This document shows, in pieces, positions 166 to 59,327 of a stretch of 64,000 bases of DNA. Under the pieces are notes generated by a model. It was given only the letters and a program-made list of their open reading frames with translations, was not told the DNA's origin and searched no databases. Numbering within the stretch: position 1 is the stretch's first letter; every line of letters starts with the position of its first letter. A program made the position numbers and the translations under genes. Source of the stretch: Calothrix anomala FACHB-343 (GTDB lineage Bacteria > Cyanobacteriota > Cyanobacteriia > Cyanobacteriales > Nostocaceae); assembly GCF_014696435.1 (NCBI RefSeq), contig NZ_JACJQG010000005.1, forward strand, positions 1-64,000, written 5' to 3'.

Positions 166-654
166 ATGAAGACTGCTGAAAAATTAGCTGCTGGTTGGCT
201 ACTCACACTCGGATTCATGTTTTTAACTCTATCAGTCTCAGCAGGAATTGAGAAACATAACTTATTAAAGCCAATCCCCGGCGCTAAAGAAGAAAGAGGT
301 GCAAGAGAATTCTTTAATAAAGATGCTCTTTATCTCCTTGATAATACGGCTAGGCAAGGTTTAATTTTTGGCGTTCCTACTTTAATTTTAGGGGGATGGC
401 TGAGTTTAGGATTATATTATCAAAGCAAACAAGAGAAAAAAGCTTTAAATCAACAAATGAGCAATCGCCTACAAGGGATTTTTTATCAAATGTTACAAGA
501 AAACAAAGGACGTATGACCCTTGTTGGCTTTGCAGTTAAATCAGAATTACCCGCAATCGCCGCCAGAGAATATTTAGACGAGAAAGCTAAAGAATTCAAT
601 GCTAATTTTCAAGTCAGCGAAGATGGGACTGTATCATATCATTTTGAGCTTTAA
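166..654 (+). CDS. Conserved hypothetical membrane protein, 162 aa
   Basis: The ATG follows a purine-rich GAGAGA ribosome site. The N-terminus (residues 9-27) is a hydrophobic segment that could be a signal or first membrane helix. A second hydrophobic segment lies at about residues 64-86. The remaining C-terminal half is charged and soluble-looking. I do not recognise a named domain; the composition and arrangement resemble small cyanobacterial conserved proteins of unknown role. It is followed after 30 bases by the DUF423 gene on the same strand, so the two may be co-transcribed. Confidence 0.75.
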   Translation: MKTAEKLAAGWLLTLGFMFLTLSVSAGIEKHNLLKPIPGAKEERGAREFFNKDALYLLDNTARQGLIFGVPTLILGGWLSLGLYYQSKQEKKALNQQMSNRLQGIFYQMLQENKGRMTLVGFAVKSELPAIAAREYLDEKAKEFNANFQVSEDGTVSYHFEL

Positions 655-684
655 ATCGAATCAACCAATCTACGCCTAAGTATA

Positions 685-1065
685 ATGACGCAGATTTTTT
701 TAAGTATAGCTGCTCTGTTTGGCGGTTTATCTGTTGCGGCAGGAGCCTTTGGCGCTCACGCTTTACGAGACAAAATCAGCGAGCGATCGCTAGAAATTTT
801 TGACACTGGCGCTAGGTATCAAATGTACCACGCTATCGCATTATTATTAGTAGGATTACTACTAAGTCGTACCGAGTCGCCACCTTCTACCCTCATAGTC
901 AGTGGTTGGCTATTTATTGTCGGTATTGCCATATTTTCAGGCAGTTTATACGCCTTAAGTTTAACTGGTATCAAATCTTTAGGAGCAATTGCACCCTTGG
1001 GAGGCGCAGCTTTTATCGCTGGTTGGGGTGCTTTAGCCTTCGCCGCTTGGAATTTAAAACTTTAA
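685..1065 (+). CDS. DUF423 family membrane protein, 126 aa
   Basis: The protein has the DUF423 layout: an N-terminal helix with the GAFGAHALRD signature (about residues 21-30), the motif TGARYQMYHAIALL near residues 41-54, and four predicted membrane helices in all. Length matches the family (about 120-130 aa; YgdD/YwdK type). The biochemical role of the family is unknown. A hairpin terminator 60 bases downstream ends the unit. Confidence 0.88.
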   Translation: MTQIFLSIAALFGGLSVAAGAFGAHALRDKISERSLEIFDTGARYQMYHAIALLLVGLLLSRTESPPSTLIVSGWLFIVGIAIFSGSLYALSLTGIKSLGAIAPLGGAAFIAGWGALAFAAWNLKL

Positions 1066-1125
1066 CTGTTGACGGTTGACGGTTGACGGTTGACCAATGA
1101 CCAATGACAAATGACAAATAAAAAT

Positions 1126-1146
1126 ACCCCCTGATAGGGGGTTTTT
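1126..1146 (+). terminator. Rho-independent terminator after the DUF423 gene
   Basis: The sequence shows a six-base-pair GC-rich stem (ACCCCC / GGGGGT) with a five-base loop followed directly by a run of T. It lies just after the repeat-rich tail of the DUF423 gene. Confidence 0.85.
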
Positions 1147-1177
1147 GCTGAGGTTCATGTTTTTGACAAAACACAAA

Positions 1178-1228
1178 AGGATAACTTAGGTTCGGTATAA
1201 CGAAAGAGGATAAGTAAGGTTCGGTATA
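1178..1228. repeat. Imperfect direct repeat, 22-base units 29 bases apart
   Basis: Two 22-base copies (1178-1199 and 1207-1228) differ at two positions and share the core GGTTCGGTATA. The rest of the 1147-1364 spacer shows no gene. Confidence 0.7.
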
Positions 1229-1364
1229 GAGTTTCTGTATATGCGCCCATATTAACAGCTAAATCAGTAAATGCAAGGGGCGATCGCGGATTCTTCAAAA
1301 TTACTTCATCAAAACTCAGCAAAGCTTACGAAAACGCTAAAAATCCCCTAGCAAAAGGTAACAG

Positions 1365-1769
1365 TTAAGGCTTTTGAGTAGCGATCGCTAATCTTGCACC
1401 CTTAACCTGACGCACTTGATCCATAACCGTGACAATCTCACCATGTTCCACTTTGCGATCGGCGTTAATTACCACAATTGTGTTTGAGTTAGAACCAACC
1501 ATACCCCGTAGCTGTTCAGCTAGTACATCAACTGTTGTCGCCTGTTTGTTCAAGCTAATGTTACCGTTAGCTTCTACTGTCACAGTAATTTTGGTTGGTA
1601 CTTGTGACTGTTGAGAAGTGGAAGCTTGGGGTAAGTTGACTGGTAATCCCTCTTGGCGCGTCAGAAATAGGGTGGACATGATGAAAAACGTCAAAATTGC
1701 AAAAATTACGTCAATCATCGGCACAATATTTATCTGTGCAGGAATATCCGCTTCATCTGGTAGACGCAT
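1365..1769 (-). CDS. exbD: ExbD/TolR-type biopolymer transport protein
   Basis: This is the small stator partner of a proton-motive-force motor. It has one N-terminal membrane helix (after INIVPMIDVIFAIL, where the Asp is the conserved proton-path residue) and a periplasmic C-terminal domain, 134 aa in all. The start is taken as the ATG at 1769 because a GGAGGAG ribosome site lies about nine bases before it. A possible upstream ATG at 1793 would overlap exbB by 41 bases and has no comparable site. The gene overlaps the end of exbB by 17 bases, so the two are one operon. It faces a divergent tonB-like gene and probably energises an outer-membrane receptor. Confidence 0.9.
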   Translation of the reverse strand: MRLPDEADIPAQINIVPMIDVIFAILTFFIMSTLFLTRQEGLPVNLPQASTSQQSQVPTKITVTVEANGNISLNKQATTVDVLAEQLRGMVGSNSNTIVVINADRKVEHGEIVTVMDQVRQVKGARLAIATQKP

Positions 1770-2409
1770 AAACCTTTTCTCCTCCTCGTTCATAACGACG
1801 GCGATACAACAGTTCTAATTGCCCACCATATTCCTGAATCAAGCCATTTTGACGTTGATACAATCCTCTAAAAGCATTGGAAAATAACAGCGTGAAAATC
1901 GCCACAACTAGCCCAGAAGCTGTAGACACTAGTGCTTCGCTGATCCCCGATGTCACATCTGCAGTTTTTGTCCCGCCCACATCACCCAAATTAAGAGACG
2001 CGAAGGAAACAATCAAACCTAGCACCGTTCCTAACAAGCCAAATAATGGCGAAAGTCCGATGATTGTTTCAAAAATCGTATTAAACCGCTTGAGAATTGG
2101 TAATTCAGCTTGCGCTTCACTTTCTAACGCCAAGCGAAACTCTTCTGGTGTGGGTTCTTCCAATTCCAAAGCAGCTAGGAAAATTCGGGGAATCGGTAAA
2201 TTTACATTTTGACGAGATTTTTCAATTGCACCCACCACATTATCCATGCGATAGAGATTGAGAATCTCTCGCACCACCTTAGCTTGGCGGGTATTGATTC
2301 GATACCAAAACCGCACGCGCTCAACAATTAAAGCTACTGCCACAACAGAAAACGCCAGCAGCGGCCACATTACCACGCCACCTGCGTTAAATAACTCTTT
2401 AATCCCCAT
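1753..2409 (-). CDS. exbB: ExbB/TolQ/MotA-family proton channel protein
   Basis: The 218-residue protein has three membrane segments (about residues 11-29, 115-140 and 155-180). The conserved core includes FETIIGLSPLFGLLGTVLGL and a second stretch ending LVSTASGLVVAIFTLL, both typical of MotA/TolQ/ExbB channels. It forms the inner-membrane motor with ExbD and transmits proton-motive force to a TonB-type protein. It is the first gene of an exbB-exbD operon, divergent from the tonB-like gene at 2716. Confidence 0.92.
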   Translation of the reverse strand: MGIKELFNAGGVVMWPLLAFSVVAVALIVERVRFWYRINTRQAKVVREILNLYRMDNVVGAIEKSRQNVNLPIPRIFLAALELEEPTPEEFRLALESEAQAELPILKRFNTIFETIIGLSPLFGLLGTVLGLIVSFASLNLGDVGGTKTADVTSGISEALVSTASGLVVAIFTLLFSNAFRGLYQRQNGLIQEYGGQLELLYRRRYERGGEKVYASTR

Positions 2410-2608
2410 ACATCCTTTGTTTTAGTTTCAATGAATATGCTGATACCGTAAGTTCTCAGGCAAATTGAGATAAGCTCTCAACTGAGAATTATAGAATACT
2501 GCGAATACTTCTCAACTTGATGTGAAAGTATCATGACAGAAAACGCATCGATTATTCAAGTAGCATTCATCCAATCGTTCTAGCTTGATGATTGACAGGA
2601 TGTCATAG

Positions 2609-2637
2609 TTGACAAACTGACCCAAAAGTAATATTCA
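2609..2637 (+). promoter_or_regulatory. Candidate sigma-70 promoter for the tonB-like gene
   Basis: TTGACA at 2609-2614 and TATTCA at 2632-2637 are separated by 17 bases, about 80 bases before the preferred tonB start. The divergent spacer 2410-2715 also holds short inverted repeats near 2485-2515, but I cannot assign a regulator. Confidence 0.45.
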
Positions 2638-2715
2638 GGATATTTACAGATATTAATTGACTTTTGCCCCAGGACAATTTAACCTTTGTTAGTGAGAATA
2701 TCTGGCAACATACTT

Positions 2716-4470
2716 ATGAGCTTCTCCGGCACTACTTTCGAGCAGCGCGAGAAAGAAACAAAGGCGCTTAAAGGTTTTTTGGTTCTAAGTCTAATTGGTT
2801 CCCTTGGCTTCCATGTAGCGGTACTCGCTTCTGGTGTTGGTAATTATTTTTCTAGAGTTTCCCCCCAGGAAGAGGAACCAATTGAGTTTACAGTTCTCGA
2901 CAATCCGGAAGAGAAAAAGGTAGAGGTAGAACCAAAGCCGGAGGAGTCTCCTAAAAAGCTGGAAGTTGAAGAAAAAACCGAGGTTATAACCAGTTCCCCA
3001 ACTAATCCGCCAACTGAAACTATTGTCAAACCCGAAAACCCAATACAGCCGATTCCCCTCCCAGCCAAGGTGGAATTACCACCCCCTAAGCAACCCATTG
3101 TCTCTGAACCACCTGTTCAAAAGTTGGTGGAAAACTTGAAGAAACCTATCGAGCAAGTTAAACCTCAAGTTCAACCAGAAAAACTCGCAGATAAGCCTGT
3201 TGCGGTACCTCAAACAAATTCCAGTAATTCTAGTAATTCTAGTAATTCCAGCAGTAATTTACGCGATACCCTACGGGGAATTAGAAATTCTCAAAGCAGT
3301 CAATCGGTTGCTACAAGTAATATCAGCAATTCTGCAACGCCAGGAAATGGTACGCCAGGAGGCGGTGGCGGCGGTGGCGGTGGCGGTGGAACATCCGTAT
3401 TAACTGGTAATGGTTCTGGTAGTATTGGCGGTTCTGGTACGGGTACTGGTACTGGTAACGGTTCTGGTGTTGGTAGCGGTAGCGGTTCCGGTGTTGGTAG
3501 CGGTAGCGGTTCCGGTGTCGGTAGTGGTAGCGGCTCTGGGATTGGTAGCGGTACTGGTTCCGGTGTCGGTAGTGGTAGCGGCTCTGGGATTGGTAGCGGT
3601 AGCGGTTCCGGTGTCGGTAATGGCGGATTACCTGTAGCTACTGCACCCACAACCCCAAAATTACCTAGTAATGGCGATGGAGAAGGTAATTCTCGGCGTG
3701 GCGGCGATGGTCGTGCTGCTTGTCAAGAATGTAATGTTAGATACTCAGATAGAGCCAGACGGCGGAAGGCAGAAGGCAGAGTAAATGTAGCTGTTGATAC
3801 AGATAGTAATGGTAATGTTACTAATGTGAGGTTACTTGGTTCCAGTGGCGATAGAGAATTAGATGAGGAACACCTACGCCAAGCTAGGAACTGGAAACTC
3901 AAGCCTTCTGAACAGGGTAGACAAGGCGTTCAGATAGCTACAGAGTATGCGATTCAAGGTTCGCGTCGCCACAGTCAAGTCAGAAAGCAGCAACAAGAAC
4001 GCCAAGAACGTGAAAGACAAAGAGAAATAGCAACTTCTACCAATAACACCAATAACAACAACTCTGGTACAGACACACCAAGACGCAGACGGCGTTTAGA
4101 AGCGGCGACTTCTGGAGGTAATGATGTACCTGTGACATCAACCAGACAAAGGGAGCAAAGCGCTACTACCAGTAGAGAATCTAGAATTAGCCGGAGATTG
4201 CGGCGCACCAATACCGCAGAATCTACTCCAACCAGGGTACAAAGTTCGGAAAATTCTTTAAATAATCGTCTGCGACGGCGATCGCGAGAAGTGACAGCAG
4301 ATGTGAGAACATCAGGAGAAACAACGCAAAATTTATTGCGAAGACGGCGACGGACTTTGAAACCATCTGCACCAGCATCGGATAGTGGTAGCCGTTTGCG
4401 TAATGCTTTGCGTCGCAGCCGTGAATCTACTCCTGCTGCTGCACCAACTCCGAGTACCACTACACCTTAG
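2716..4470 (+). CDS. TonB-like energy transducer with Gly/Ser repeats and Arg/Ser-rich tail
   Basis: The protein (584 aa from the ATG at 2716; an in-frame TTG at 2686 is the alternative) has a cytoplasmic lead, one membrane anchor (about 18-37), a Glu/Pro/Lys-rich periplasmic stretch, an Asn/Ser block, and a Gly-Ser-Gly-Val tandem-repeat region (about 215-305). A TonB C-terminal domain follows (about 355-400, motifs [19 protein letters not shown] and ARNWKLKP). TonB normally ends there. Here about 170 further residues rich in Arg, Ser, Thr and Asn follow, which is unusual. It lies divergent to exbB-exbD, so the three probably form one system for TonB-dependent uptake, for example of siderophores. 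The substrate is not shown. Confidence 0.85.
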
Positions 4471-23320: not shown

Positions 23321-24436
23321 TTACTTTTGAGATGAAACTAAACTCAAAAGTTCTTCCATATCAAGGCTGCGTTTTTTCTCTACTGAATGTTGTCTGACTG
23401 CGTCTAAGACAGATTGGGTTTGTTCTGGATTTAAATCAATACCTTGTTGCTGTAACAACTTAGCTACCAAGTGTCTACCTGAATGTTTACCCACAACTAA
23501 GCGCCTTTCCCAACCGACTTCTTCCGGTGCAAAGGGTTCGTAAGTCACGGGGTTTTGCAATACGCCATGAGCGTGAATCCCCGATTCATGAGCGAAGGTA
23601 TTTTCCCCAACAATCGCTTTCCAAGGCGGTACGTGACAACCGGATGCGGTAGCTACCATGCGAGATAGTTCTAACAAGCGGGTTGTATCAATTCCTAAAT
23701 CAATACCTTGAATGCGTTTGAGCGCCATAACAACTTCTTCTAAGGCGGCGTTACCGGCTCTTTCCCCTAAGCCATTCACGGTGGTATTCACCGATAAAGC
23801 TCCCGCTTGTAATCCGGCTAAGGCGTTGGCTGTAGCTAATCCAAAATCATTATGGGTGTGCATTTCTAGGGGAATCGATAAATACGTCACCAATTGCTGA
23901 ACTTTGGTATAGGTAGTAAAGGGATCGAGAATGCCGACAGTGTCGCAAAAGCGAAATCTGGAAGCACCCCATTCTTGAGCATTTAAGGCGACTTCTAAGA
24001 GAAAGCTGTCAGTGGCTCTGGAAGAATCTTCACCGCCTACTGCTACCCAAAGACCGCGATCGCGTGCAAAGCTAATAGCATCTTTGAGTTTGTCTAACAT
24101 ACAGCGCCATTGTCCGTGAAACTTCGCAGCAATTTGAATTTCTGAGACAGGCACAGATATATGTACGCGCTGTAAACCACAGTTAATAGAAGCCTGAATA
24201 TCGCCAATATTTGCCCGATTCCAGCCTAATAGTTCTGCTTTTAAACCTAAGTTAGCAATTGCAGCGATCGCTTTTGTTTCTACTTCTCCCATTGCTGGGA
24301 TACCAATTTCTAATTCAGCAATACCAATAGCATCTAATAATTGCGCGATCGCAACTTTTTCTTGAATATTAAAAGCAACACCCGCAGCTTGTTCCCCATC
24401 CCTTAGTGTAGTGTCATTAATCACGATCGCATTCAT
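23321..24436 (-). CDS. nifV: Homocitrate synthase
   Basis: The 371-residue enzyme condenses acetyl-CoA and 2-oxoglutarate to homocitrate, the organic ligand of FeMo-co. The N-terminal active-site motif [16 protein letters not shown], the metal-binding [14 protein letters not shown] and the [14 protein letters not shown] stretch are clear. ATG 24436 is chosen because AAGGGG lies ahead of it; an in-frame TTG at 24460 precedes that site and is unlikely. It is transcribed away from nifB, with a 31-codon ORF 99 bases upstream. Confidence 0.95.
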
Positions 24437-24535
24437 AATACACAACCCCTTGAGTCGCAATTTAGATTTTCGCTGAGTTCCTGAGTTTAATCATAGGTGT
24501 GTTGCTGGGTATTGGTATAGTGAATTAACTACAAT

Positions 24536-24967: not shown

Positions 24968-25007
24968 GTATTAGCTTGTACTCAATTCTTATAAATTCCG
25001 ATAGGAT
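24968..25007 (+). promoter_or_regulatory. Candidate NtcA-activated promoter, distal to nifB
   Basis: GTA-N8-TAC at 24968-24981 matches the NtcA consensus exactly. It is followed after 20 bases by TAGGAT at 25002-25007, which fits the TAN3T -10 box of NtcA-type promoters. It points toward nifB, about 1.1 kb away. NtcA is the global nitrogen activator of cyanobacteria; binding here is predicted only. Confidence 0.6.
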
Positions 25008-25045
25008 CAGAATTTACACATTGAAAAAACTTTTTTCCATCTGAG

Positions 25046-25064
25046 GGTACTAGTATTTTCTAAT
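25046..25064 (+). promoter_or_regulatory. GGTACTAGTATTT motif, copy 1 (nifV-nifB region)
   Basis: The 13-base core plus CTAAT three bases later, together with the preceding T-rich stretch and TCTGAGG, matches a block at 56666-56685 beside cnfR and cox. I regard it as a candidate site for a shared nif regulator such as CnfR. That is inference. Confidence 0.5.
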
Positions 25065-25192: not shown

Positions 25193-25692
25193 TCATTTGT
25201 AATTGCAGAGATTTTTTATGGAAAAGTTTTTGTCTGTATATCCAGCTACAATCTAATATTTTTTGGCTAAGTTTTGGCAAAAAAATCGCCTTCTCTGTGC
25301 TGATATGAAACTTCAATGCTCGTATATCAAGTTCTATGAGCTTCTATTTCCTGTCTTTGTCCTAATTTAGGGGTCAGACCCATCATTTAACCAAGCTAGC
25401 TCGTCTGTATATGGAAACACAATTTTCGATAAAGTTATTTTAAGGATAGTTTTTTCCAGAGAAAAAGTGTTATTTTAGATACGGAATTGAATTTCGCTTA
25501 GCCACTGGGGTAGTGTTTGCTTACTGCTCCAGTTATTTCTCTCAAAAGAACGTAAGTAAGTAGCTCTCAAAAGAGCGATCGCAGACAATCTGAGTACAGA
25601 TTGAACAACAGCAAAAAACAACTTAAATTACACTCAAACTCAAGCTAGTATTGAGTTACAGGCGAGTACAAAAATACTTGAACCCCTTCGTT

Positions 25693-25729
25693 ATAAATAC
25701 TCGTACCCCAGGGAATAAATACTAGTACC
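25693..25729 (-). promoter_or_regulatory. Tandem GGTAC(T/G)AGTATTTAT pair
   Basis: On the minus strand two copies of the motif begin 22 bases apart, about two helical turns, suggesting a protein bound to one DNA face. The first copy shares all 13 bases of the 25046 motif. GAGTAC words also occur at 25592, 25664, 25790 and 26061. Apart from these sites the 24632-26150 region shows no gene. Confidence 0.5.
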
Positions 25730-26150
25730 TATACCTAAAAAGTTTTTTAAAATCTCCATAAACCTTACTAATTCTGCGTTACAGATTTTGAGTACAAGAG
25801 TAATAAATTTAATAAATTATAAAAAACACCAGCAATTTCCGCCTTTCAAGTGACTGGTATAAATAAGACATGTATCGCTCAACACTTAAAGCACTAACAC
25901 AAATGTATTGCTAAACACTTAAAAGCGATCGCTATCCAAGTTTGTAGCAATCATCTCTATGAATCAAAGTCGCCGCTTTAAACCCCAATTTACCCCAATC
26001 CCCTAGCTGGACAAATTAGCCGAAAGTCTAAGTTTATCCAACTAGAGTAGGCAATTTTCAGAGTACAACGCGACTTTAATTTCTGACTGAGAGCGAACAA
26101 AAGCATCTTGTATAACGCCAGTCCTTTATCCCCAAGGTAAGCGAAATTCA

Positions 26151-27611
26151 ATGACACCACCACCTACAGGACTCCTAACATCAGCTCCCACGGAAACTAA
26201 AGCTAAATCTAGTAGTTGTGGTTGCAGTAGCAAAACTGATACCACAACTAGTTTAGATGAAAAAATGAAAGCGCGGATTGAAAAACATCCTTGCTATAGC
26301 GAAGAAGCACACCACCACTACGCTAGGATGCACGTTGCAGTTGCACCAGCTTGCAATATCCAATGCAACTATTGCAACCGCAAATATGATTGTGCTAACG
26401 AAAGCCGTCCTGGAGTGGTTAGCGAATTGCTCACACCAGAAGAAGCAGCACACAAGGTTTTAGTGATTGCTGGGAAAATTCCCCAAATGACAGTTTTGGG
26501 AATTGCAGGCCCCGGAGATCCCCTAGCGAATCCAGAGAAAACCTTCCGCACCTTTGAGTTAATTGCCGAGAAAGCGCCAGATATCAAACTTTGCCTATCA
26601 ACCAACGGATTGATGCTTCCCGATTATGTAGATCGGATTAAACAACTTAATATCGATCATGTCACCATCACTATTAATATGGTAGACCCAGAAATCGGCG
26701 CGAAAATTTATCCTTGGGTTCACTACAACCGCAAACGCTACAGAGGGATTGAAGGTGTCCGCATTCTGCATGAAAAGCAGATGGAAGGATTGCAAGCTCT
26801 CAAAGAAGCAGATATTCTCTGCAAAGTTAACTCGGTGATGATTCCGGGAATTAACGACGAACATTTGGTAGAGGTTAACGAAGTTATTCGTTCCAAGGGC
26901 GCGTTTCTGCATAATATTATGCCCTTGATTTCTGCCCCAGAACACGGTACTCACTTTGGTTTAACTGGTCAACGCGGCCCCAATCCTAAAGAACTGAAGG
27001 CAGTACAAGATAAATGTTCTGGTAATATGAAAATGATGCGCCATTGTCGTCAATGTCGCGCTGATGCGGTAGGTTTATTAGGTGAAGACCGCAGTCAAGA
27101 ATTTACCAAAGATAAATTCATGGAAATGGCTCCAGAATATAATTTGGAGCAACGCCAAGAAGTACATGCACAGATAGAGAAATCGCAACAAGAAATCAAA
27201 GCTACCAAACAAAAAGCTGTAGAGACGTTGCAAACAACAACTCTCAAGAACAGACCCAAAATCTTAGTTGCAGTCGCTACCAAAGGCGGCGGTTTAGTTA
27301 ACCAGCACTTCGGTCACGCGAAAGAGTTTATGGTTTACGAAGTAGATGGTAGCAGCGCTAAATTTGTTGGTCATCGCAAAATTGACCACTATTGTCAAAG
27401 CGGATATGGTGAGGAAGCGACTTTAGACAACATTATTCAAGCTATCTCCGATTGTAAAGCAGTTCTAGTTTCTAAAATCGGTCACTGTCCTCAAGAAGAA
27501 TTGCAGAAAGCTGGTTTACAGACAGTTGAAGCTTACGACGTAATCGAAAAAGTGGCTTTGGAATTTTACGACCAGTATATCAAGGGGTTAGAGAAAACTG
27601 TTGACTGTTGA
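26151..27611 (+). CDS. nifB: FeMo-cofactor biosynthesis radical SAM protein
   Basis: The 486-residue protein has the radical-SAM cluster motif CNIQCNYC near residues 63-70, further Cys in [11 protein letters not shown], and a C-terminal NifX-like domain (about 373-480, [12 protein letters not shown]). NifB builds NifB-co, the 8Fe-9S-C core of the cofactor. It is the first gene of the plus-strand nif array, preceded by a 1.5-kb regulatory region. Heptamer repeats follow, then fdxN. Confidence 0.97.
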
Positions 27612-35333: not shown

Positions 35334-35624
35334 ATGAGTACAATCATCCACAGCCGCGATCGCTTTTTTGATGTTCTCTCTCCCTTACGCCGATGGGTGG
35401 ATCGATTTCAAATATGCGATCGCCGTATCGCCCATCTCATTTGTCAAGTTATTCCCTGTTGTTGTCCTTTTGAACGCGACGTTAAATTCCTCGGACACAC
35501 TTTCCACATTCCCCCACTCTGCAAATTAAATCCGCTCTACAACGAGTTTGTGGGTTTACGCTTTCGCAGTCTGTCTTATCTCTCAGATGAGTGTGGTGAA
35601 GATATCACGAAATATATTTGCTAA
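35334..35624 (+). CDS. Mo-dependent nitrogenase C-terminal-domain protein
   Basis: The 96-residue protein carries the small nif-linked domain seen in cyanobacteria (LSPLRRWVDRFQICDRRIAHLICQVIPCCCPFERD, quoted in part: RRIAHLICQVIPCCCPFERD). Start ATG 35334 is used; the frame upstream is repeat DNA. The domain holds a CCC cluster and a basic N-terminus. Its job is unknown. The position between nifK and nifE is usual for it. Confidence 0.8.
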   Translation: MSTIIHSRDRFFDVLSPLRRWVDRFQICDRRIAHLICQVIPCCCPFERDVKFLGHTFHIPPLCKLNPLYNEFVGLRFRSLSYLSDECGEDITKYIC

Positions 35625-47619: not shown

Positions 47620-47772
47620 TTTTCCACGCGATCGCTACATCACACTTAGTATCAACCGCAACTAAATAAATGCGTGTAAACCATGAAATACATTCATCAA
47701 GTAAAATTCAGTTGGTAAATACGTTAGTGGTTAACTTATATCCCAGTATCGGATACTCCTATACTTGGCTAT
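47620..47772 (-). pseudogene. Degenerate coxC fragment
   Basis: About 150 bases align with the intact coxC at about 52355-52495, shared in the same orientation. Matching words include GCGTGTAAACCATGAAA versus ACGTGTAAACCATGAAA, TCATCAAGTAAAA, CAGTTGG, and TATCCCAGT. The copy has many substitutions and small indels and no open frame. It lies upstream of the P450 gene. Confidence 0.82.
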
Positions 47773-47895
47773 TCTCGCGATCGCTGCTCAAGAATTAACT
47801 CGCGTCTGACTGCAAGCTTGTCGGGGTTAACGGGCTTTGAGTCATCAGTTACCTTCATAGCAAAAATAAATAAATGAGGAGTACTCACATTTTTG

Positions 47896-52229: not shown

Positions 52230-52841
52230 TTAGAGCAAAGTTAGGAGATACAGCAGCGAAAATAGAATAATCCAGATGATATCTACAAAATGCCAGTAGA
52301 TTTCCGCCATTTCAATGCCAGTGTGTTTAGTTGCAGAGTAATGACCGAGACGGCGCGATCGCCACAGCACACCAAGTATTAACAATAACCCAATAAATAC
52401 GTGTAAACCATGAAAACCAGTCATCAAGTAAAAGCAGTTGGCAAACACGTTGGTAGTTAATCCATATCCCAGTGTCAAATACTCATATACTTGACCGCCT
52501 AAGAAAATTGCTCCCATTAGCGCCGTAATTCCATACCATAAACGCATTCCGGCGACATTGTTCTTTTTAATCGCTGTATCGCCTAAATGAATGACAAAGC
52601 TGCTAGAAACCAGGATGATTGTGTTAATCGTGGGTACGAGTAATTCTACCTCTGTACCTTCTGGCGGCCAGACTTCCGCACCACCACGCAAAATCAGGTA
52701 CGTGGCAAAAAAGCCAGCAAACATTAAAGACTCGGAAACCAGAAACGTCAGCAGCCCAAACACCCGCAAGTCTGGATGGTGTTCGTGAGAAGCGGTTGAC
52801 GCTAAGGCTATTTCTGGGGCGTTTAAAGTTGAATCCTGCAT
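52230..52841 (-). CDS. coxC: Cytochrome c oxidase subunit III
   Basis: The 203-residue protein has five membrane segments. Family blocks seen are FLVSESLMFAGFFATYLILR (about 30-49), TGFHGLHVFIGLLLILGVL (about 140-158) and EIYWHFVDIIWIILF (about 180-194). The ATG at 52841 is used; the TTG nine bases upstream is unlikely. It is the last gene of coxB-coxA-coxC. A degraded copy lies at 47620-47772. Confidence 0.94.
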   Translation of the reverse strand: MQDSTLNAPEIALASTASHEHHPDLRVFGLLTFLVSESLMFAGFFATYLILRGGAEVWPPEGTEVELLVPTINTIILVSSSFVIHLGDTAIKKNNVAGMRLWYGITALMGAIFLGGQVYEYLTLGYGLTTNVFANCFYLMTGFHGLHVFIGLLLILGVLWRSRRLGHYSATKHTGIEMAEIYWHFVDIIWIILFSLLYLLTLL

Positions 52842-52905
52842 AAATTCCAATTTCTAGATAAATAATTGGACGGTGTACTTTCAAGACTTTTTCTCTCTGT
52901 GTCAC

Positions 52906-53112: not shown

Positions 53113-54765
53113 CTAAGCTGCGGTTTGGGCTGTTTCTGGAATTTCAATATTGCGCCCATAATCATAGGGGCCGTGAGTGACTACAGGTAATACTTCCCAA
53201 TTTTCAATCGCTGGTGGGGAAGCGGTTGTCCATTCTAAAGTCAGCGCCTCCCAAGGATTATCTGTGGCTTTGGTACCATACATCCAACTCCAAATGGCGT
53301 TGAAGAAAAAGGGTAATACAGATATGCCAAGAATCATCGCGCCAATGGTACAAATATGATTGATTCCGGCAAATTGCGGGTCATACATGGCGACTCTACG
53401 GGGCATTCCTTGTAATCCCAACTGGTGCATGGGTAGGAAGGTGAGGTGAGTACCCACAAAAGTGAGGGCGAAGTGAACTCTTCCCCAAGTTTCATTCATC
53501 ATTCTGCCGGTAATTTTGGGAAACCAATGATAGATTCCGGCATAGATGCCAAATACGGAACCGCCAAATAAGACGTAATGAAAATGACCGACGACATAAT
53601 AGGTATCGTGAACGTGGATATCAAAAGGGGCTGTGCCTAAAGTTACACCGCCCAATCCACCAACTACAAACATGGATAGCAAGCCAATGGCAAATAGCAT
53701 GGCGCTGGTGAAGCGGATTTTACCACCCCATAGAGTTGCTACCCAACCAAAAATTTTCACGCCGGTGGGAACGGCAACAATGAGAGTAGAGATGGTGAAG
53801 AACATCCGCATCCAAGGGGGTGTACCACTGGTAAACATGTGGTGTACCCATACGAATAAACCGATAATGCAAATTGCCAAGCTGGAATAAGCGATCGCTT
53901 TATAGCCAAATATTGGTTTACGGGCGTGAACGGGAATCACCTCGGACATAATGCCGAAGATGGGCAAAATCATTAAATATACGGCAGGATGGGAATAAAA
54001 CCAGAATAAATGCTGATAAAGCACCACGTTTCCGCCTGCGTCTGGCTTAAAGAAAGAAGTGCCAAAGTTGATATCAAATAATAACAGCACTAATCCCGCC
54101 GCTAGCACTGGGGTAGACAGCAGGGCTAAAACGGAAGTTGCTAAAATTGCCCAGCAAAATAATGGCATTTGTGTCCATTGCATACTGGGGACTTTCATTT
54201 TCAAAATGGTGACGACAAAGTTTAACGCCCCCAAAATTGAGGAAGTTCCCACCAAAACGATCGCTAAAATCCACATTGTTTGGGCAGTATTAGCGGTGAT
54301 TAAACTCAATGGCGGGTAAGCAGTCCAGCCGCTTTGAGAACCACCAAAAAAGAAACTGCCTAAAAGTAATGCGCCGGCTGGGGGATTCAACCAAAAGGCG
54401 ATCGCATTTAATTTCGGAAACGCCATATCTCGCGCCCCCACCATCAACGGAATCAGGAAGTTACCAAATCCACCAATGGCGGCGGGTACAATCCACATAA
54501 AAATCATCAATGTGCCGTGATTCGTCATGAAGGCGTTATACAGATTGGGGTCGAGAAAATCTGCATCTGGCGTATTTAACTCGATGCGAATAGCCATAGC
54601 CATCAATCCCCCAATCAGGTAAAAGATAAAGGCTGTTACCAGATATTGAATGCCAATGACTTTGTGGTCGATATTAAATGTAAAGTAGTCGTACCATTTC
54701 CAACTCTGGGGTAGTTCGTGGGCGGTAACAACTGCTGTAGTTTGCGAATTTTGTAACTGTGTCAT
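53113..54765 (-). CDS. coxA: Cytochrome c oxidase subunit I, A2-type
   Basis: The 550-residue haem-copper oxidase core has about 12 membrane helices. Haem and copper ligands lie in MTNHGTLMIFMW, WFYSHPAVYLMILP (Cu-B His), VWVHHMFTSG and VVGHFHYVLFGG. The position that is Glu in A1-type enzymes (GHPEVY) reads YSHPAVY, so the proton channel is of the A2 Tyr-Ser type. It reduces oxygen to water with cytochrome c electrons, probably in the cytoplasmic or thylakoid membrane. Confidence 0.96.
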   Translation of the reverse strand: MTQLQNSQTTAVVTAHELPQSWKWYDYFTFNIDHKVIGIQYLVTAFIFYLIGGLMAMAIRIELNTPDADFLDPNLYNAFMTNHGTLMIFMWIVPAAIGGFGNFLIPLMVGARDMAFPKLNAIAFWLNPPAGALLLGSFFFGGSQSGWTAYPPLSLITANTAQTMWILAIVLVGTSSILGALNFVVTILKMKVPSMQWTQMPLFCWAILATSVLALLSTPVLAAGLVLLLFDINFGTSFFKPDAGGNVVLYQHLFWFYSHPAVYLMILPIFGIMSEVIPVHARKPIFGYKAIAYSSLAICIIGLFVWVHHMFTSGTPPWMRMFFTISTLIVAVPTGVKIFGWVATLWGGKIRFTSAMLFAIGLLSMFVVGGLGGVTLGTAPFDIHVHDTYYVVGHFHYVLFGGSVFGIYAGIYHWFPKITGRMMNETWGRVHFALTFVGTHLTFLPMHQLGLQGMPRRVAMYDPQFAGINHICTIGAMILGISVLPFFFNAIWSWMYGTKATDNPWEALTLEWTTASPPAIENWEVLPVVTHGPYDYGRNIEIPETAQTAA

Positions 54766-54773
54766 AGAAACAG

Positions 54774-54895
54774 GGGCTAGGGGCTAGGGGCTAGAGGCTA
54801 GGGAAGGAGGACAAGGGGGACAAGGGGGACAAGGGGGACAAGGGGGACAAGGAGGACAAATGACAAATGACTATTGACTATTGACTACTGACTAC
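54774..54895. repeat. GGGGCTA and GGGGGACAA arrays between coxB and coxA
   Basis: Three to four GGGGCTA heptamers, six GGGGGACAA nonamers and several TGACTAT/TGACTAC heptamers fill the spacer and overlap the last coxB codons. Confidence 0.9.
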
Positions 54896-55701
54896 TGACT
54901 GACTTGATTTTCTGCTAACCAGCGATCGTATTCTTCGGGGGTGTGGACAACTACGGAACTACGCATACTACCGTGATAGCCACCACAAAGTTCGGCACAA
55001 ACTATGGGGTAGGTTCCGGTTTTGGTGGCGGTGAAGCGTAATTGTGTGGCTTGTCCAGGAATTGCATCTTGCTTCAAGCGAAACTGGGGTACCCAAAATG
55101 AGTGAATCACATCATTTGCAGAGATGTTTAGTAATACATCTTGATCTACAGGAACGTGCAATTCGCCAGTATCAACATTTTTATCGGGATAGTTGAACAG
55201 CCAAGCATATTGCATTCCCGTGACGTTGACTACTAAAGCAGGTGGTTTTCCTTCGTTTACAGGTGTGGAACCAATACCAATCGGGTTAGATTTTGTTTCT
55301 GTCATCATCGATTCGTGACTCATTCCATGATGGGATATGGCATCCATCCCGCCCATTTCTGTGTAAACATCTACACTGTAGATTCCTAAGCCAATAACGA
55401 TGATTCCGGGAATGATAGTCCACAAAATTTCTAAAGGAAAGCTACCTTCCATTGGTTCGCCATCGCTGTTATCGCCACGACGGCGGCGAAACTTAATTAC
55501 AGCAATGAGTATCGCCCCTTGTACTACTAAAAATAAAGCAGTCCCAATGGCTACCATCACGTTAAAAAAATTATCTACTAAAGGCGCTTGTAAAGAAGCT
55601 TGTTCTGGAAGCAGATGATTATTTTGTCCTACCCACAAGCTAATGAGAGTAATTAAAATACCTGCGATTAAAGTTACGATGCCAACGGGTATTTGTTTCA
55701 T
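54892..55701 (-). CDS. coxB: Cytochrome c oxidase subunit II with CuA site
   Basis: The 269-residue protein has two membrane helices (about 7-27 and 48-70) and a periplasmic/lumenal cupredoxin domain. CuA ligands are present: CAELCGGYHGSM (about 234-245) and the upstream His in DVIHSFWVP. It is thus a cytochrome c oxidase, not a quinol oxidase. ATG 55701 is chosen on a GAGGAAA site; it overlaps the upstream gene stop (ATGA). Confidence 0.95.
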   Translation of the reverse strand: MKQIPVGIVTLIAGILITLISLWVGQNNHLLPEQASLQAPLVDNFFNVMVAIGTALFLVVQGAILIAVIKFRRRRGDNSDGEPMEGSFPLEILWTIIPGIIVIGLGIYSVDVYTEMGGMDAISHHGMSHESMMTETKSNPIGIGSTPVNEGKPPALVVNVTGMQYAWLFNYPDKNVDTGELHVPVDQDVLLNISANDVIHSFWVPQFRLKQDAIPGQATQLRFTATKTGTYPIVCAELCGGYHGSMRSSVVVHTPEEYDRWLAENQVSQ

Positions 55702-56066
55702 AAAATAATTTCCTCTGGATAAGGATTCTGCTGCCACATTCTTTGCAATATTTTGATTTTTCTTTGTCTCATCGCCGCTCGATAAGCAACATAGCTATTA
55801 TGTAAATTAACTCCTAAACAAAAACCTATAGGAGCTAAAATGATCGCCCATAATAATCCATAAATCCGGGGATTTATTCCATAATTCATTAATTGCTGAC
55901 TGTTTTTTATGTCTGACAATAAATTTTCTCTTGCCAGAAAATTTAGATGTTCTTGCCAAACTACTATTATGGCTACTAAAGCTGGAGAAAGCACTACTAA
56001 GGTTAATAAAATTACTGTGATAATTTTTAATGTCTTCGGTTGCATAAGCATCACGCTAAACCGCAT
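55698..56066 (-). CDS. Unnamed two-helix membrane protein at the head of the cox operon
   Basis: The protein is about 122 residues (start ATG 56066; 56099, 56051 and 56045 are alternatives with no better ribosome site). It has two membrane helices (about 10-33 and 65-86), a basic C-terminal segment (RAAMRQRKIKILQRMW) and an acidic end. I do not recognise a family. Its stop overlaps the coxB start, so it belongs to the operon and may assist oxidase assembly; that is inferred from position only. Confidence 0.65.
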   Translation of the reverse strand: MRFSVMLMQPKTLKIITVILLTLVVLSPALVAIIVVWQEHLNFLARENLLSDIKNSQQLMNYGINPRIYGLLWAIILAPIGFCLGVNLHNSYVAYRAAMRQRKIKILQRMWQQNPYPEEIIL

Positions 56067-56609
56067 ATTCTCGTGAATGCGGCGGTATAAGTACTGCATT
56101 TTCAAATCCGGTTAATTCCATCTGTAAACGCCAATAATCTTGACAAATTACAGCGAATCTCTTTGATATATGAAAATCTGCTTTAATCTGCTTCTGAGCA
56201 ATTGGGATATGAAGATGAAAAAGTAAAGTCAGCCAATACCGAGACAATCTTACAACCAAGGAATAAAAATCTTTCTTCCTTTGTTACTTATATTTTGTTA
56301 CCTATATTTTGTGTATATATCACGAAAAAAGATTATCTGGGTAAACTCCCCTCAGTTCGGCAGCATTTTTTAGGATTTCTTAATAGTTGAGAATGCCTAA
56401 ATATTTTAGATTTTCTTAACTATTGATAGAAAAATTTTTCAACTATCGCCCATCGGTCTTCGCCCAATCCTCCTGATGCTTTTTGTGTATTTATTGGTTC
56501 ATATATCAAAAGAGAACTGCTAGAGAATATTCAGAACACTCCTATTCGACCTGTATATCAGAAGTGTTATATCAGCTACTTGATTTCTTCATCGCGGATA
56601 ATTAAGAAT

Positions 56610-56726
56610 GTACTCAACTGTGTAAATCCTTACACCATAAGAGCTTCAAAGTATTTTTCTGTTGGGGTACTAGTATTTCTCTAATGTTAAGAATATTTAC
56701 TGACAGTTATAGGTACTAGGGTTTTT
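56610..56726 (+). promoter_or_regulatory. GGTACTAGTATTT block in the cox-cnfR region
   Basis: GTACTCAA (56610), a T-rich stretch, GGTACTAGTATTT (56666-56678) with CTAAT (56681-56685), and a second GGTACTAGGGTTTTT (56712-56726) occur in series. The first two parts repeat the order in the nifB leader (GTACTCAA at 24978, motif at 25046). It lies 600 bases before the cox unit and 1.04 kb before cnfR. Confidence 0.5.
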
Positions 56727-57707: not shown

Positions 57708-59327
57708 ATGCCCTACGCCATTACTAAGCGCTGTATTCAGTGTGATAATTGCCTTCCTCATTGTCCTAAAGGCGCTATCCAAGTGATAGATGGTGATTAC
57801 TGGATTGACCCGACTGTGTGTAATGACTGTGAAGGTTATATGACACCACAGTGCGTGCTTTCCTGTCCTGTTGATTCACCTATACCTTATCAGGCGAAAA
57901 AGGGCAGATGCAAGATTGACGCCAAAACTGTTGCGAGTCCGAAGCTGTTTACTAACGGAAACAGCCATCCTTTTGCTTCAGCGATTGTGATTTGGGAATT
58001 GTGCAACGTTTTAGCGCAACGCCAATCTCTTGTGTGGGATATGGATGCAGAGGGAGAGTTATATTATCAACGACAAATTAATGGCGGTAAAGGTGCGATC
58101 GCTTTTCGGGTGACAGATAGTGTTGATTCTACCGCAGCAGTAGCGCTTAAAGGTGCAGAAGCTGTCTCTGCCATTGAGAACTTCGATTTGAGATCTGCTT
58201 GTTTGCACTTAATCTATGCTGCTTATGCGACTAATTTAGAGCAGCCTTGGGCAGAAGAGTTTATCATTAATGACAAACAAATTGAAGATTATTTAGGCTT
58301 AGATAAGCGCAAAGATTTAAATAAATCTACCAAACTGGCTTTAATTAAAGAATTAGTACAGCAACCATGTCAACTGATAGCTTCAATTAATTTACCTGCA
58401 AAAGGTAAAATTCAGGAAGTGAAATTAGAAAACAGTCGAGTCTGGCATTTATTAGAAATTCAACACCATTTTCAAGAAGATGATTTAGGCTGTAAACATC
58501 TAGTAGGATTAACTTTTAAAATTCAAGCTGGGGAATGGGCACAGTATTTTTTAAATCGCCAAGCTTGCAAAGAAAGGAAAGCTTTTTATCAATATGGTAC
58601 TTTACCCAAGGTTTTACTGAATACAGTCATGAGTATTTGGCAACAGCATGAAGGTGCAGCCAGGATGATGCTGTGGTTATTATTTAAAACCAAAATGGGT
58701 AAAGAACAGCGCGTAACTATTCCTACTTTGATGAGAGTAGCTTATGGTGAGGTAAAATTAAGCCATGTAGCCTTGCAACCAGAACATCGCCAACGGTTAT
58801 TAAGAATATTTGAAAGCGATTTAGAAGTACTCCATCATTATGGACTAAAACCAATATTCGATCCCGTTACTTACCCTGAAGAAATTCAACCTTTATGGGC
58901 GAAATTAGTAAATATTCCCGAAGATGCAGAAGCAGCATTAGAATTCTGGATTGATGATGGTAGTAATAGTAAGCGATTAACTGATGCAGCGCCACGTGGT
59001 AAATGGACTAGATTAATGAATGCGCGGATTTTAGATTTTGAAATGCCTTCAGATTGGAAAAAACAATTGAGCAAATCAAAGCAGAAAAAATCGCGAACTA
59101 CTAAAAGTAAGACTCAGATGAAACAGCAAATAGTTCTTTCTACCGAATATATTCTTGAAGCGAGGAAAAAACTCGGATTAAGTCAAAGAGATTTGGCTCA
59201 ATTAACAGGTAAAAGTCAGAGTTGGATTCGAGATATTGAAAACGGGCGGTTTCAAGCTAAGTTAGAAGACCAAATATTATTAAGAAAAGCATTAGGTATC
59301 AATTCTAATTCTGTGGGTGGAAGTTAG
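57708..59327 (+). CDS. cnfR: CnfR (PatB-type) transcriptional activator of nif genes
   Basis: The 539-residue protein has an N-terminal ferredoxin domain with CIQCDNCLPHCPKG (about 9-22) and a second, looser CNDCEGYMTPQCVLSCP motif (about 43-59). A long middle region follows, then a C-terminal Cro/C1-type helix-turn-helix (about 478-535, RKKLGLSQRDLAQLTGKSQS). This domain order is that of CnfR/PatB, which turns on nif genes under low oxygen in Leptolyngbya boryana and Anabaena variabilis (CnfR1/CnfR2). The Fe-S clusters presumably sense oxygen. It lies 15 kb from the nif array and faces the cox operon. Confidence 0.94.
   Translation: MPYAITKRCIQCDNCLPHCPKGAIQVIDGDYWIDPTVCNDCEGYMTPQCVLSCPVDSPIPYQAKKGRCKIDAKTVASPKLFTNGNSHPFASAIVIWELCNVLAQRQSLVWDMDAEGELYYQRQINGGKGAIAFRVTDSVDSTAAVALKGAEAVSAIENFDLRSACLHLIYAAYATNLEQPWAEEFIINDKQIEDYLGLDKRKDLNKSTKLALIKELVQQPCQLIASINLPAKGKIQEVKLENSRVWHLLEIQHHFQEDDLGCKHLVGLTFKIQAGEWAQYFLNRQACKERKAFYQYGTLPKVLLNTVMSIWQQHEGAARMMLWLLFKTKMGKEQRVTIPTLMRVAYGEVKLSHVALQPEHRQRLLRIFESDLEVLHHYGLKPIFDPVTYPEEIQPLWAKLVNIPEDAEAALEFWIDDGSNSKRLTDAAPRGKWTRLMNARILDFEMPSDWKKQLSKSKQKKSRTTKSKTQMKQQIVLSTEYILEARKKLGLSQRDLAQLTGKSQSWIRDIENGRFQAKLEDQILLRKALGINSNSVGGS

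Follow-up and report, generated by a model that had tools for sequence, protein, structure and literature searches.

A conserved array of 22-bp-spaced repeats lies ahead of nitrogenase genes and, in some cyanobacteria, of cytochrome oxidase genes, and is a probable CnfR-responsive element

Nitrogen-fixing cyanobacteria carry, as far as their sequences tell, a conserved switch of repeats spaced 22 bp apart ahead of their nitrogenase genes, and in some species, the one analysed here among them, a copy of it lies ahead of genes for oxygen-consuming respiration. The copy at the cytochrome oxidase (cox) genes probably ties oxygen removal to nitrogen fixation. The starting point was a 13-mer, GGTACTAGTATTT, which had been proposed as a block joining nitrogenase and oxidase genes in the 64-kb stretch of DNA analysed here (the window). 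The block is indeed part of a conserved element linked to nif, copies of which are also found ahead of cox genes. It is one repeat of a composite of about 94 bp, and we are strongly inclined to regard it as one repeat of the cis-element to which CnfR responds; arrays of this element would then put oxidase and nitrogenase under the same low-oxygen signal.

Results

As originally predicted, GGTACTAGTATTT occurs exactly three times in the window, at 25046-25058 (+), 25717-25729 (-) and 56666-56678 (+), against an expectation of 0.01 from 100 dinucleotide shuffles. Allowing up to two mismatches raises the count to nine (1.53 expected) and brings in 25695 (-), 25672 (-) and 56712 (+). A second string, GTACTCAA, had been noted upstream at two loci and is present at both (24978 and 56610). 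The inverted copy had been taken for a tandem pair at 25693-25729; inverted repeats do exist there, but they form a triplet at 25672/25695/25717 with steps of 23 and 22 bp. CTAAT, which had been counted as part of the block, falls in spacer that is unconserved in relatives and is probably there by chance. A box, TTGTACTCA, lies at 24976 (+) and at 25789 (-), the latter flanking the inverted group, and TGTACTCA lies at 56609 (+); two further copies of TTGTACTCA in the window, at 35335 and 36356, are both within coding sequence. The 13-mer put forward as the unit is a real repeat, but the full unit comprises the repeats and the boxes on either side of them, in the order TTGTACTCA, A/T tract, up to three repeats of GGnnCnAGTATTT at 22 bp, and TTGTACTCA. 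The window's arrays and the genes around them are listed here, each array being assigned to its gene by the orientation rule set out below.

23321..24460, minus: nifV, homocitrate synthase (TIGR02660, 542.3 bits, above cut-off)
24976..25058, plus: worn array assigned to nifV; box TTGTACTCA 24976-24984, A/T tract about 25021-25038, one full repeat 25046-25058
25664..25797, minus: array assigned to nifB, with repeats and boxes, matched by profile R1 and of the same architecture as in relatives' nifB leaders; box TTGTACTCA 25789-25797, A/T tract about 25736-25755, repeats (minus) 25717-25729, 25695-25707 and 25672-25684, box TTGTACTC 25664-25671
26151..27611, plus: nifB (TIGR01290, 673.7 bits, above cut-off)
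52230..52850, minus: coxC (NCBIfam subunit III models below cut-off; neighbours and homologues beside relatives' coxA agree)
53113..54765, minus: coxA (TIGR02891, above cut-off)
54892..55737, minus: coxB (TIGR02866, above cut-off)
55698..56105, minus: orf135, which opens the cox operon and is a homologue of the leading gene of the C39 operon described below
56609..56724, plus: worn array assigned to the orf135-coxBAC operon; box TGTACTCA 56609-56616, short T tract about 56653-56659, full repeat 56666-56678 and partial repeat 56712-56724 (both plus)
57708..59327, plus: cnfR-type regulator with an N-terminal ferredoxin-like region and a C-terminal XRE/HipB-like HTH

The best of the three arrays is 25664-25797, whose first repeat lies about 420 bp ahead of the nifB start; R1 matches it at 25663-25751 with 64.4 bits (E 4.8e-17, 9.24 Mb searched). 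The two weakest are those at the two places compared in the original prediction: 24976-25058, in which the second and third repeats and the distal box are unrecognisable and which R1 does not return at E 0.01 in a search of the whole genome, and 56609-56724, which it returns at 20.9 bits (E 0.0019). The regulator at 57708-59327 is called CnfR on account of its domain order, which is that described for CnfR, and of its cox/nif neighbours: the N-terminal 4Fe-4S region (NF033683, residues 1-63) and the C-terminal XRE HTH (TIGR03070, residues 481-531) are both there, below the curated cut-offs. The orf135 product has no Pfam match up to E 0.1, and comparison with relatives puts the true start of the gene probably near 56054. 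Short CoxC-like fragments (67-70%) at 47626-47773 (-) are perhaps a coxC remnant.

The genome that contains the window has a second nifB (contig C108, 84% identical) and a second cnfR (C71, 63% identical); this second nif set consists of nifB on C108, nifP-nifV on C59 and, on C71, cnfR1-cox2 without an array (L092, L093, L091). Two nifB and two cnfR are likewise present in each of Nostoc carneum NIES-2107 and Calothrix membranacea FACHB-236. If such two-set genomes are set aside, the cnfR closest to that of the window, among the genomes searched, is the one in G067, of family f18.

Comparison of nifB leaders, which the original prediction had proposed as a check, showed that the architecture is kept. 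Within a sample of the order, the core (up to two mismatches) was found at 25 of 30 nifB loci, and at 22 of the 30 tandem copies lay 22, 23 or 44 bp apart (counted by eye). A weight matrix was trained on 76 sites from those 25 loci, the other five having no site within two mismatches. Across 80 named nifB loci, sites of at least 16 bits numbered 171 per 150.7 kb of leaders vs 21 per 1,334 kb elsewhere. Some of the named genomes are also sampled ones (for example G142 and G098, with the same cnfR place), and counts in the nifB leaders are not independent tests.

Orientation and spacing were counted in the 78 leaders with at least 700 bp upstream, two shorter ones being dropped. A minus-strand site lay within 760 bp of nifB in 71 of the 78, and seven had no proximal site. 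Within that distance 135 sites were minus and 4 plus; farther upstream none was minus and 32 were plus. The proximal array is thus antisense to nifB, and the distal one antisense to the divergent gene. Neighbouring sites were exactly 22 bp apart in 93 of 99 cases, and the arrays lay mostly at -430 to -560. Of 71 arrays, 65 had a box ahead of repeat 1, at a distance of 66-69 bp in 51, of 57-59 bp in 13 and of 90 bp in one; matches to TG(T/C)ACTCA or T(A/G)CACTCA were accepted. Likewise, 65 of 71 had TG(T/C)ACTC after the repeats, which in 63 lay 57-59 bp from where repeat 1 starts. In the sequence downstream of the nifB start, TG(T/C)ACTCA had a background frequency of 0.003 per 100 bp and strand. 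The consensus of about 94 bp runs A/T tract, GGGTAGG, three repeats, box.

Orientation is a count at nifB; at other loci it is the rule by which we assigned targets. By this rule 25664-25797 serves nifB, 24976-25058 serves nifV and 56609-56724 serves cox. The block at 25046 had been read as part of the nifB leader: it is nif-linked, but by its orientation it would serve nifV, and nifB has an array of its own.

A single core is not specific enough to find such arrays. The complete genome of 9.24 Mb contains five exact cores, and the 37 with up to one mismatch compare with 11 for a reversed-pattern control, implying that one core is weakly specific and that the array discriminates; on those numbers we rejected the single-core search and used array searches. 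A tandem-pair pattern was too strict, with three matches, all within the two nifB arrays. The R1 profile was built from 63 of 97 arrays from named nifB leaders, the 34 omitted being mostly near-copies. Neither training set included cox or C39-type arrays; nifP and nifV arrays were in where they share a nifB leader. In the window's own genome R1 gave five matches: nifB (C108), nifP-nifV (C59), nifB (C90:25663), the operon on C39 and, weakly, cox (C90:56650). The predicted genome-wide restriction of the motif accordingly holds for arrays, all five matches lying at nif, cox or nif-associated genes.

The same specificity was seen in other genomes. Among 35 whole genomes searched with R1, each of the 26 that bear nif had two to five matches (E 0.01). 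The nine controls that lack canonical nifB yielded a single weak match (E 0.004), in G033, and none in the other eight. In the order sample (120 genomes, array E 1e-4) arrays were present in 31 of 32 genomes with canonical nifB and 1 of 88 without, and in none of the eight with divergent nifB. In a sample of the class (194 genomes, nifB at E 1e-100 or better) the figures were 60 of 68 and 2 of 126. These counts are not independent, the genomes being related and partly common to the samples (nine array-bearing genomes are in both), and both searches used stricter filters that lose weak matches. The two class genomes with arrays and no canonical nifB are G203 and G274, the arrays of the latter lying at a contig edge.

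The eight class-sample nifB genomes without an array at E 1e-4 are six of genus g89 (G176, G207, G220, G241, G251 and G260), plus G012 and G201. In g89 the array and CnfR have diverged together: the CnfR matches of all six are partial and 34-40% identical, and regulator and site possibly co-evolved. G012 and G201 have canonical nifB and CnfR that is 53% and 51% identical. The leaders of G241, G260 and G012 nevertheless contain a pair scoring above all 100 shuffles, and the other g89 leaders keep boxes with no clear pair; the G201 nifB leader showed no box and no pair above shuffled sequence.

In the order sample every array-bearing genome but G103 (31 of 32) also has a cnfR match. Conversely, arrays are missing in 12 of 43 genomes with a cnfR match when partial matches are counted; most of the 12 are partial or broken, and those of G005, G012, G018 and G028 are nearly full-length. 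Array presence tracks nif more tightly than it tracks cnfR. In G103, which has neither a nifB nor a cnfR match, an array with box and repeat (E 4.5e-9; L295, L325) lies between znuA-like and esterase-like genes. G102 (L109) has a broken cnfR, and neither nifB nor an array was found in it; this looks like a relic of lost nitrogen fixation.

To see what the arrays serve, we surveyed 50 array rows, omitting most nifB leaders of the R1 search and adding the window genome's own rows, L096 and L103. The served-side genes were nifP in 15 rows, a C39-type operon in 13 plus one partial (L272), nifB in 7, cox in 5, nifV without nifP in 2 and a luciferase-like gene alone in 1. Six rows fitted no family (L271, L276, L281, L283, L286, L287), although in L281 and L287 a gene related to the C39 123-aa gene lies farther along. 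By the orientation rule the G103 array and one on contig C44 of G091 fit no target. Elsewhere a single strong repeat stands ahead of an HSDR_N-domain gene in G075 and G101 (L302 5001-6083, L303 4502-5906), and in G075 (L307 4649-6110) a repeat beside cnfR heads cupin and CBS-CP12 genes (Pfam); gene pairs like the latter, recognised by eye or size only, are present in L283 and L303.

Cox arrays were found in seven genomes, a tally for which the cox neighbourhood was viewed in a minority of the named genomes. They are full in N. carneum, C. membranacea, G067, Phormidium LEGE 05292 and G091, and partial in the window and in G122, which has one repeat only; those of G091 and G122 lay outside the 50-row survey. 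The N. carneum and C. membranacea arrays score 48.8 and 46.9 bits vs 20.9 for the window copy, with three repeats, both boxes and steps of 20 and 26 bp (by eye). At eight cnfR-adjacent cox loci (the C71 locus of the window's genome, G065, G111, G077, G035, G003, G094 and G058) there was no site of at least 14 bits at cox or cnfR; in G065 and G035 sites lie farther off, ahead of C39-type genes. In a CoxA tree of 14 rows, from which G122 was dropped as too short, the six rows of family f1, to which the window belongs, are cnfR-adjacent cox loci and form a separate, array-free clade (100/99). On the best tree the array label needs two changes, one not being excluded, and G091 stands apart on a long branch. 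The neighbourhood of these loci, a cox operon beside cnfR, is that of Anabaena cox2 (coxB2A2C2), which we take to lie beside patB/cnfR in that heterocyst-forming genus.

The array on C39 heads an operon of small genes.

C39 (L094) 392-3560, minus: uncharacterised six-gene operon on a contig of the window's genome, with its own array

Its products are proteins of 142, 96, 103 and 122 aa, a luciferase-like monooxygenase (PF00296) and a protein of 123 aa; the five other than the monooxygenase have no Pfam match up to E 0.1. The 142-aa first protein is homologous to orf135 (26% identity, BLASTP E 2e-17 in a single comparison). In G067 one array heads orf135-coxB-coxA-coxC-96-103-122 in a row, and the 122-aa gene was found in 17 genomes out of 120, each of which also has nifB and cnfR matches. 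We infer that coxBAC and the small genes once formed one CnfR-controlled unit that was split later in the window's family.

Discussion

The nifB array is very probably the published CnfR cis-element (motifs I-IX or CS1-3), and so already known; the identity with motifs I-IX is drawn from position, conservation and description, not letter by letter. The element lies upstream of nifB, with a proximal site in 71 of 78 leaders, is conserved in 60 of 68 class genomes with canonical nifB, has nifP as the first served gene in 15 of 50 array rows, and is accompanied by a cnfR match in 31 of the 32 order-sample genomes that have arrays. The predicted link to CnfR fits the literature on nifB (PMC8510180, PMC5943405). 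CnfR1 and CnfR2 activate nifB1 and nifB2; three conserved stretches upstream are regarded as CnfR sites, and removing them cuts nifB1 transcription by 50-75%, the removal of two reducing expression by 75% (PMC8510180). These elements, CS1-CS3 of Anabaena variabilis nifB1 and nifB2, resemble ours by description, and the nifB1 start at -328, reported with conserved motifs in a figure legend (PMC4284476), is compatible with arrays at -430 to -560. The same legend prints a motif, TGAGTATA, that we could not reconcile with our repeat: it occurs twice in the leaders vs 173 times for the dominant TGAGTACA. In Leptolyngbya boryana, motifs I-IX of the nifB promoter are likewise upstream of nifB and for recognition by CnfR, which activates nifB and nifP from one intergenic region; cox lies beside cnfR, and some genes of the cluster are expressed less without cnfR (PMC5943405). 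The element is described here as a 22-bp array with boxes and an antisense preference, standing also ahead of cox and of another operon.

We propose that CnfR, an iron-sulphur XRE-type activator, would act in micro-oxic cells by binding the 22-bp-phased array (two helical turns, hence one face of the helix) together with the flanking TTGTACTCA boxes. Once bound upstream of the transcription start, the array would activate the gene to which it is antisense. In the window's genome the candidate targets would be two nifB, nifP-nifV and the accessory operon, with worn arrays at nifV and orf135-coxBAC, such that the same low-oxygen signal may switch on oxidase and nitrogenase.

Several other readings deserve weighing. 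The arrays might bind another nitrogen-fixation regulator or a sigma factor, with CnfR acting only indirectly. The array does follow nif more tightly than cnfR, and the A. variabilis nifB start is described as an extended -10 promoter without a -35 (PMC8510180). Against this, CnfR with the nifB promoter is reported to work in the non-diazotrophic Synechocystis 6803 (PMC5943405), and genus g89, which lacks an R1 array, also has strongly diverged CnfR. The NtcA site pattern, GTAN8TAC, occurs 15 times vs 10.2 expected, close to chance, never overlapping a repeat and once overlapping the box at 24976; the window's two copies of the DIF+ motif TCCGGA (given in an abstract), at 2904 and 15445, both fall outside these leaders. 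We consider binding by another regulator unlikely. Tandem repeats of 22 bp are superficially like plasmid iterons, but chance repeats, iterons or the end of a mobile element would hardly be concentrated in nif- and cox-type leaders with near-fixed orientation and spacing, or be found in 60 of 68 nif-bearing vs 2 of 126 other genomes. We rejected this very improbable reading on leader concentration, R1 genome specificity and the orientation and spacing counts.

The binding of CnfR itself thus preferred, its target at the cox-cnfR spacer and the activity of the worn copies have to be considered. The spacer copy might serve cnfR autoregulation instead of cox, since five genomes (that of the window, N. 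carneum, C. membranacea, G122 and G067) have it between divergent cox and cnfR genes. Its orientation, however, is that of an element serving a minus-strand gene, and in the draft assemblies of Phormidium LEGE 05292 and G091 array and cox lie on another contig than cnfR, the roughly 4 kb and 10 kb beyond the array being without a cnfR match; in addition, L. boryana cnfR is stated to be independent of CnfR (PMC5943405, legend). Autoregulation therefore seems improbable to us, and because of those array-cox pairs on separate contigs we assign the copy at 56666 to cox. Of the block predicted for the cox-cnfR region as a whole, its place ahead of cox stands, and by orientation it would serve cox and not cnfR. 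A more serious possibility, though one that we doubt on balance, is that the single-repeat copies at 25046 and 56666 are non-functional relics, the nifB array alone being active here. Each has one full repeat and has lost the distal box, R1 detects the one at cox no better than E 0.0019 and misses the one at nifV, and a second nifP-nifV operon has a full array on C59. The nifV copies of the window, N. carneum and C. membranacea are worn alike. But at either locus N. carneum and C. membranacea have an identical core repeat, and most of the proximal box survives. This retention of core and box suggests remaining constraint, and both worn copies may still be active, that at cox contributing to co-activation with nitrogenase.

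The CnfR element is reportedly conserved in diazotrophic cyanobacteria, as Tsujimoto is said to have found in 2016. Two findings appear to be new: seven genomes have an array ahead of cox (a partial one in two of the seven), but none of the eight cnfR-adjacent cox loci examined has one; and there is an unannotated operon whose first gene is homologous to that of the cox operon. Among the matches listed, the titles and abstract openings of open-licence papers mention no CnfR array before cox, although the Tsujimoto papers of 2014 and 2016 may say more. The term cox is absent from the available portions of PMC8510180, as are motif and cox from those of PMC5745016 and PMC8307165.

How the cox and accessory operons are related can be put more speculatively, in a scenario for which we see the chances as about even. 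The ancestral CnfR regulon would have held a complete oxygen-removal operon on one array (the small membrane protein, coxBAC and three unnamed small proteins), as kept in G067. In the window's family, which we take from named relatives to be the heterocystous Nostocaceae, coxBAC would have left the array for array-free control, since heterocyst respiration must lower oxygen ahead of CnfR action; the cnfR-adjacent cox would thus have been freed, and the small genes would have kept the CnfR array beside the luciferase-like monooxygenase. If true, these genes together would form an unannotated, CnfR-controlled operon for nitrogenase protection.

Array, period, orientation and boxes together give a searchable definition of a probable CnfR target, through which the CnfR regulon might be read from cyanobacterial genomes; this is relevant to the choice of genes that a transfer of nitrogenase to new hosts requires. 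The definition predicts that cytochrome oxidase would be directly coupled to nitrogenase in second-set and some other nif clusters, that no such coupling would exist at the cnfR-adjacent cox of the window's family, and that the C39-type operon is a likely accessory of nitrogen fixation.
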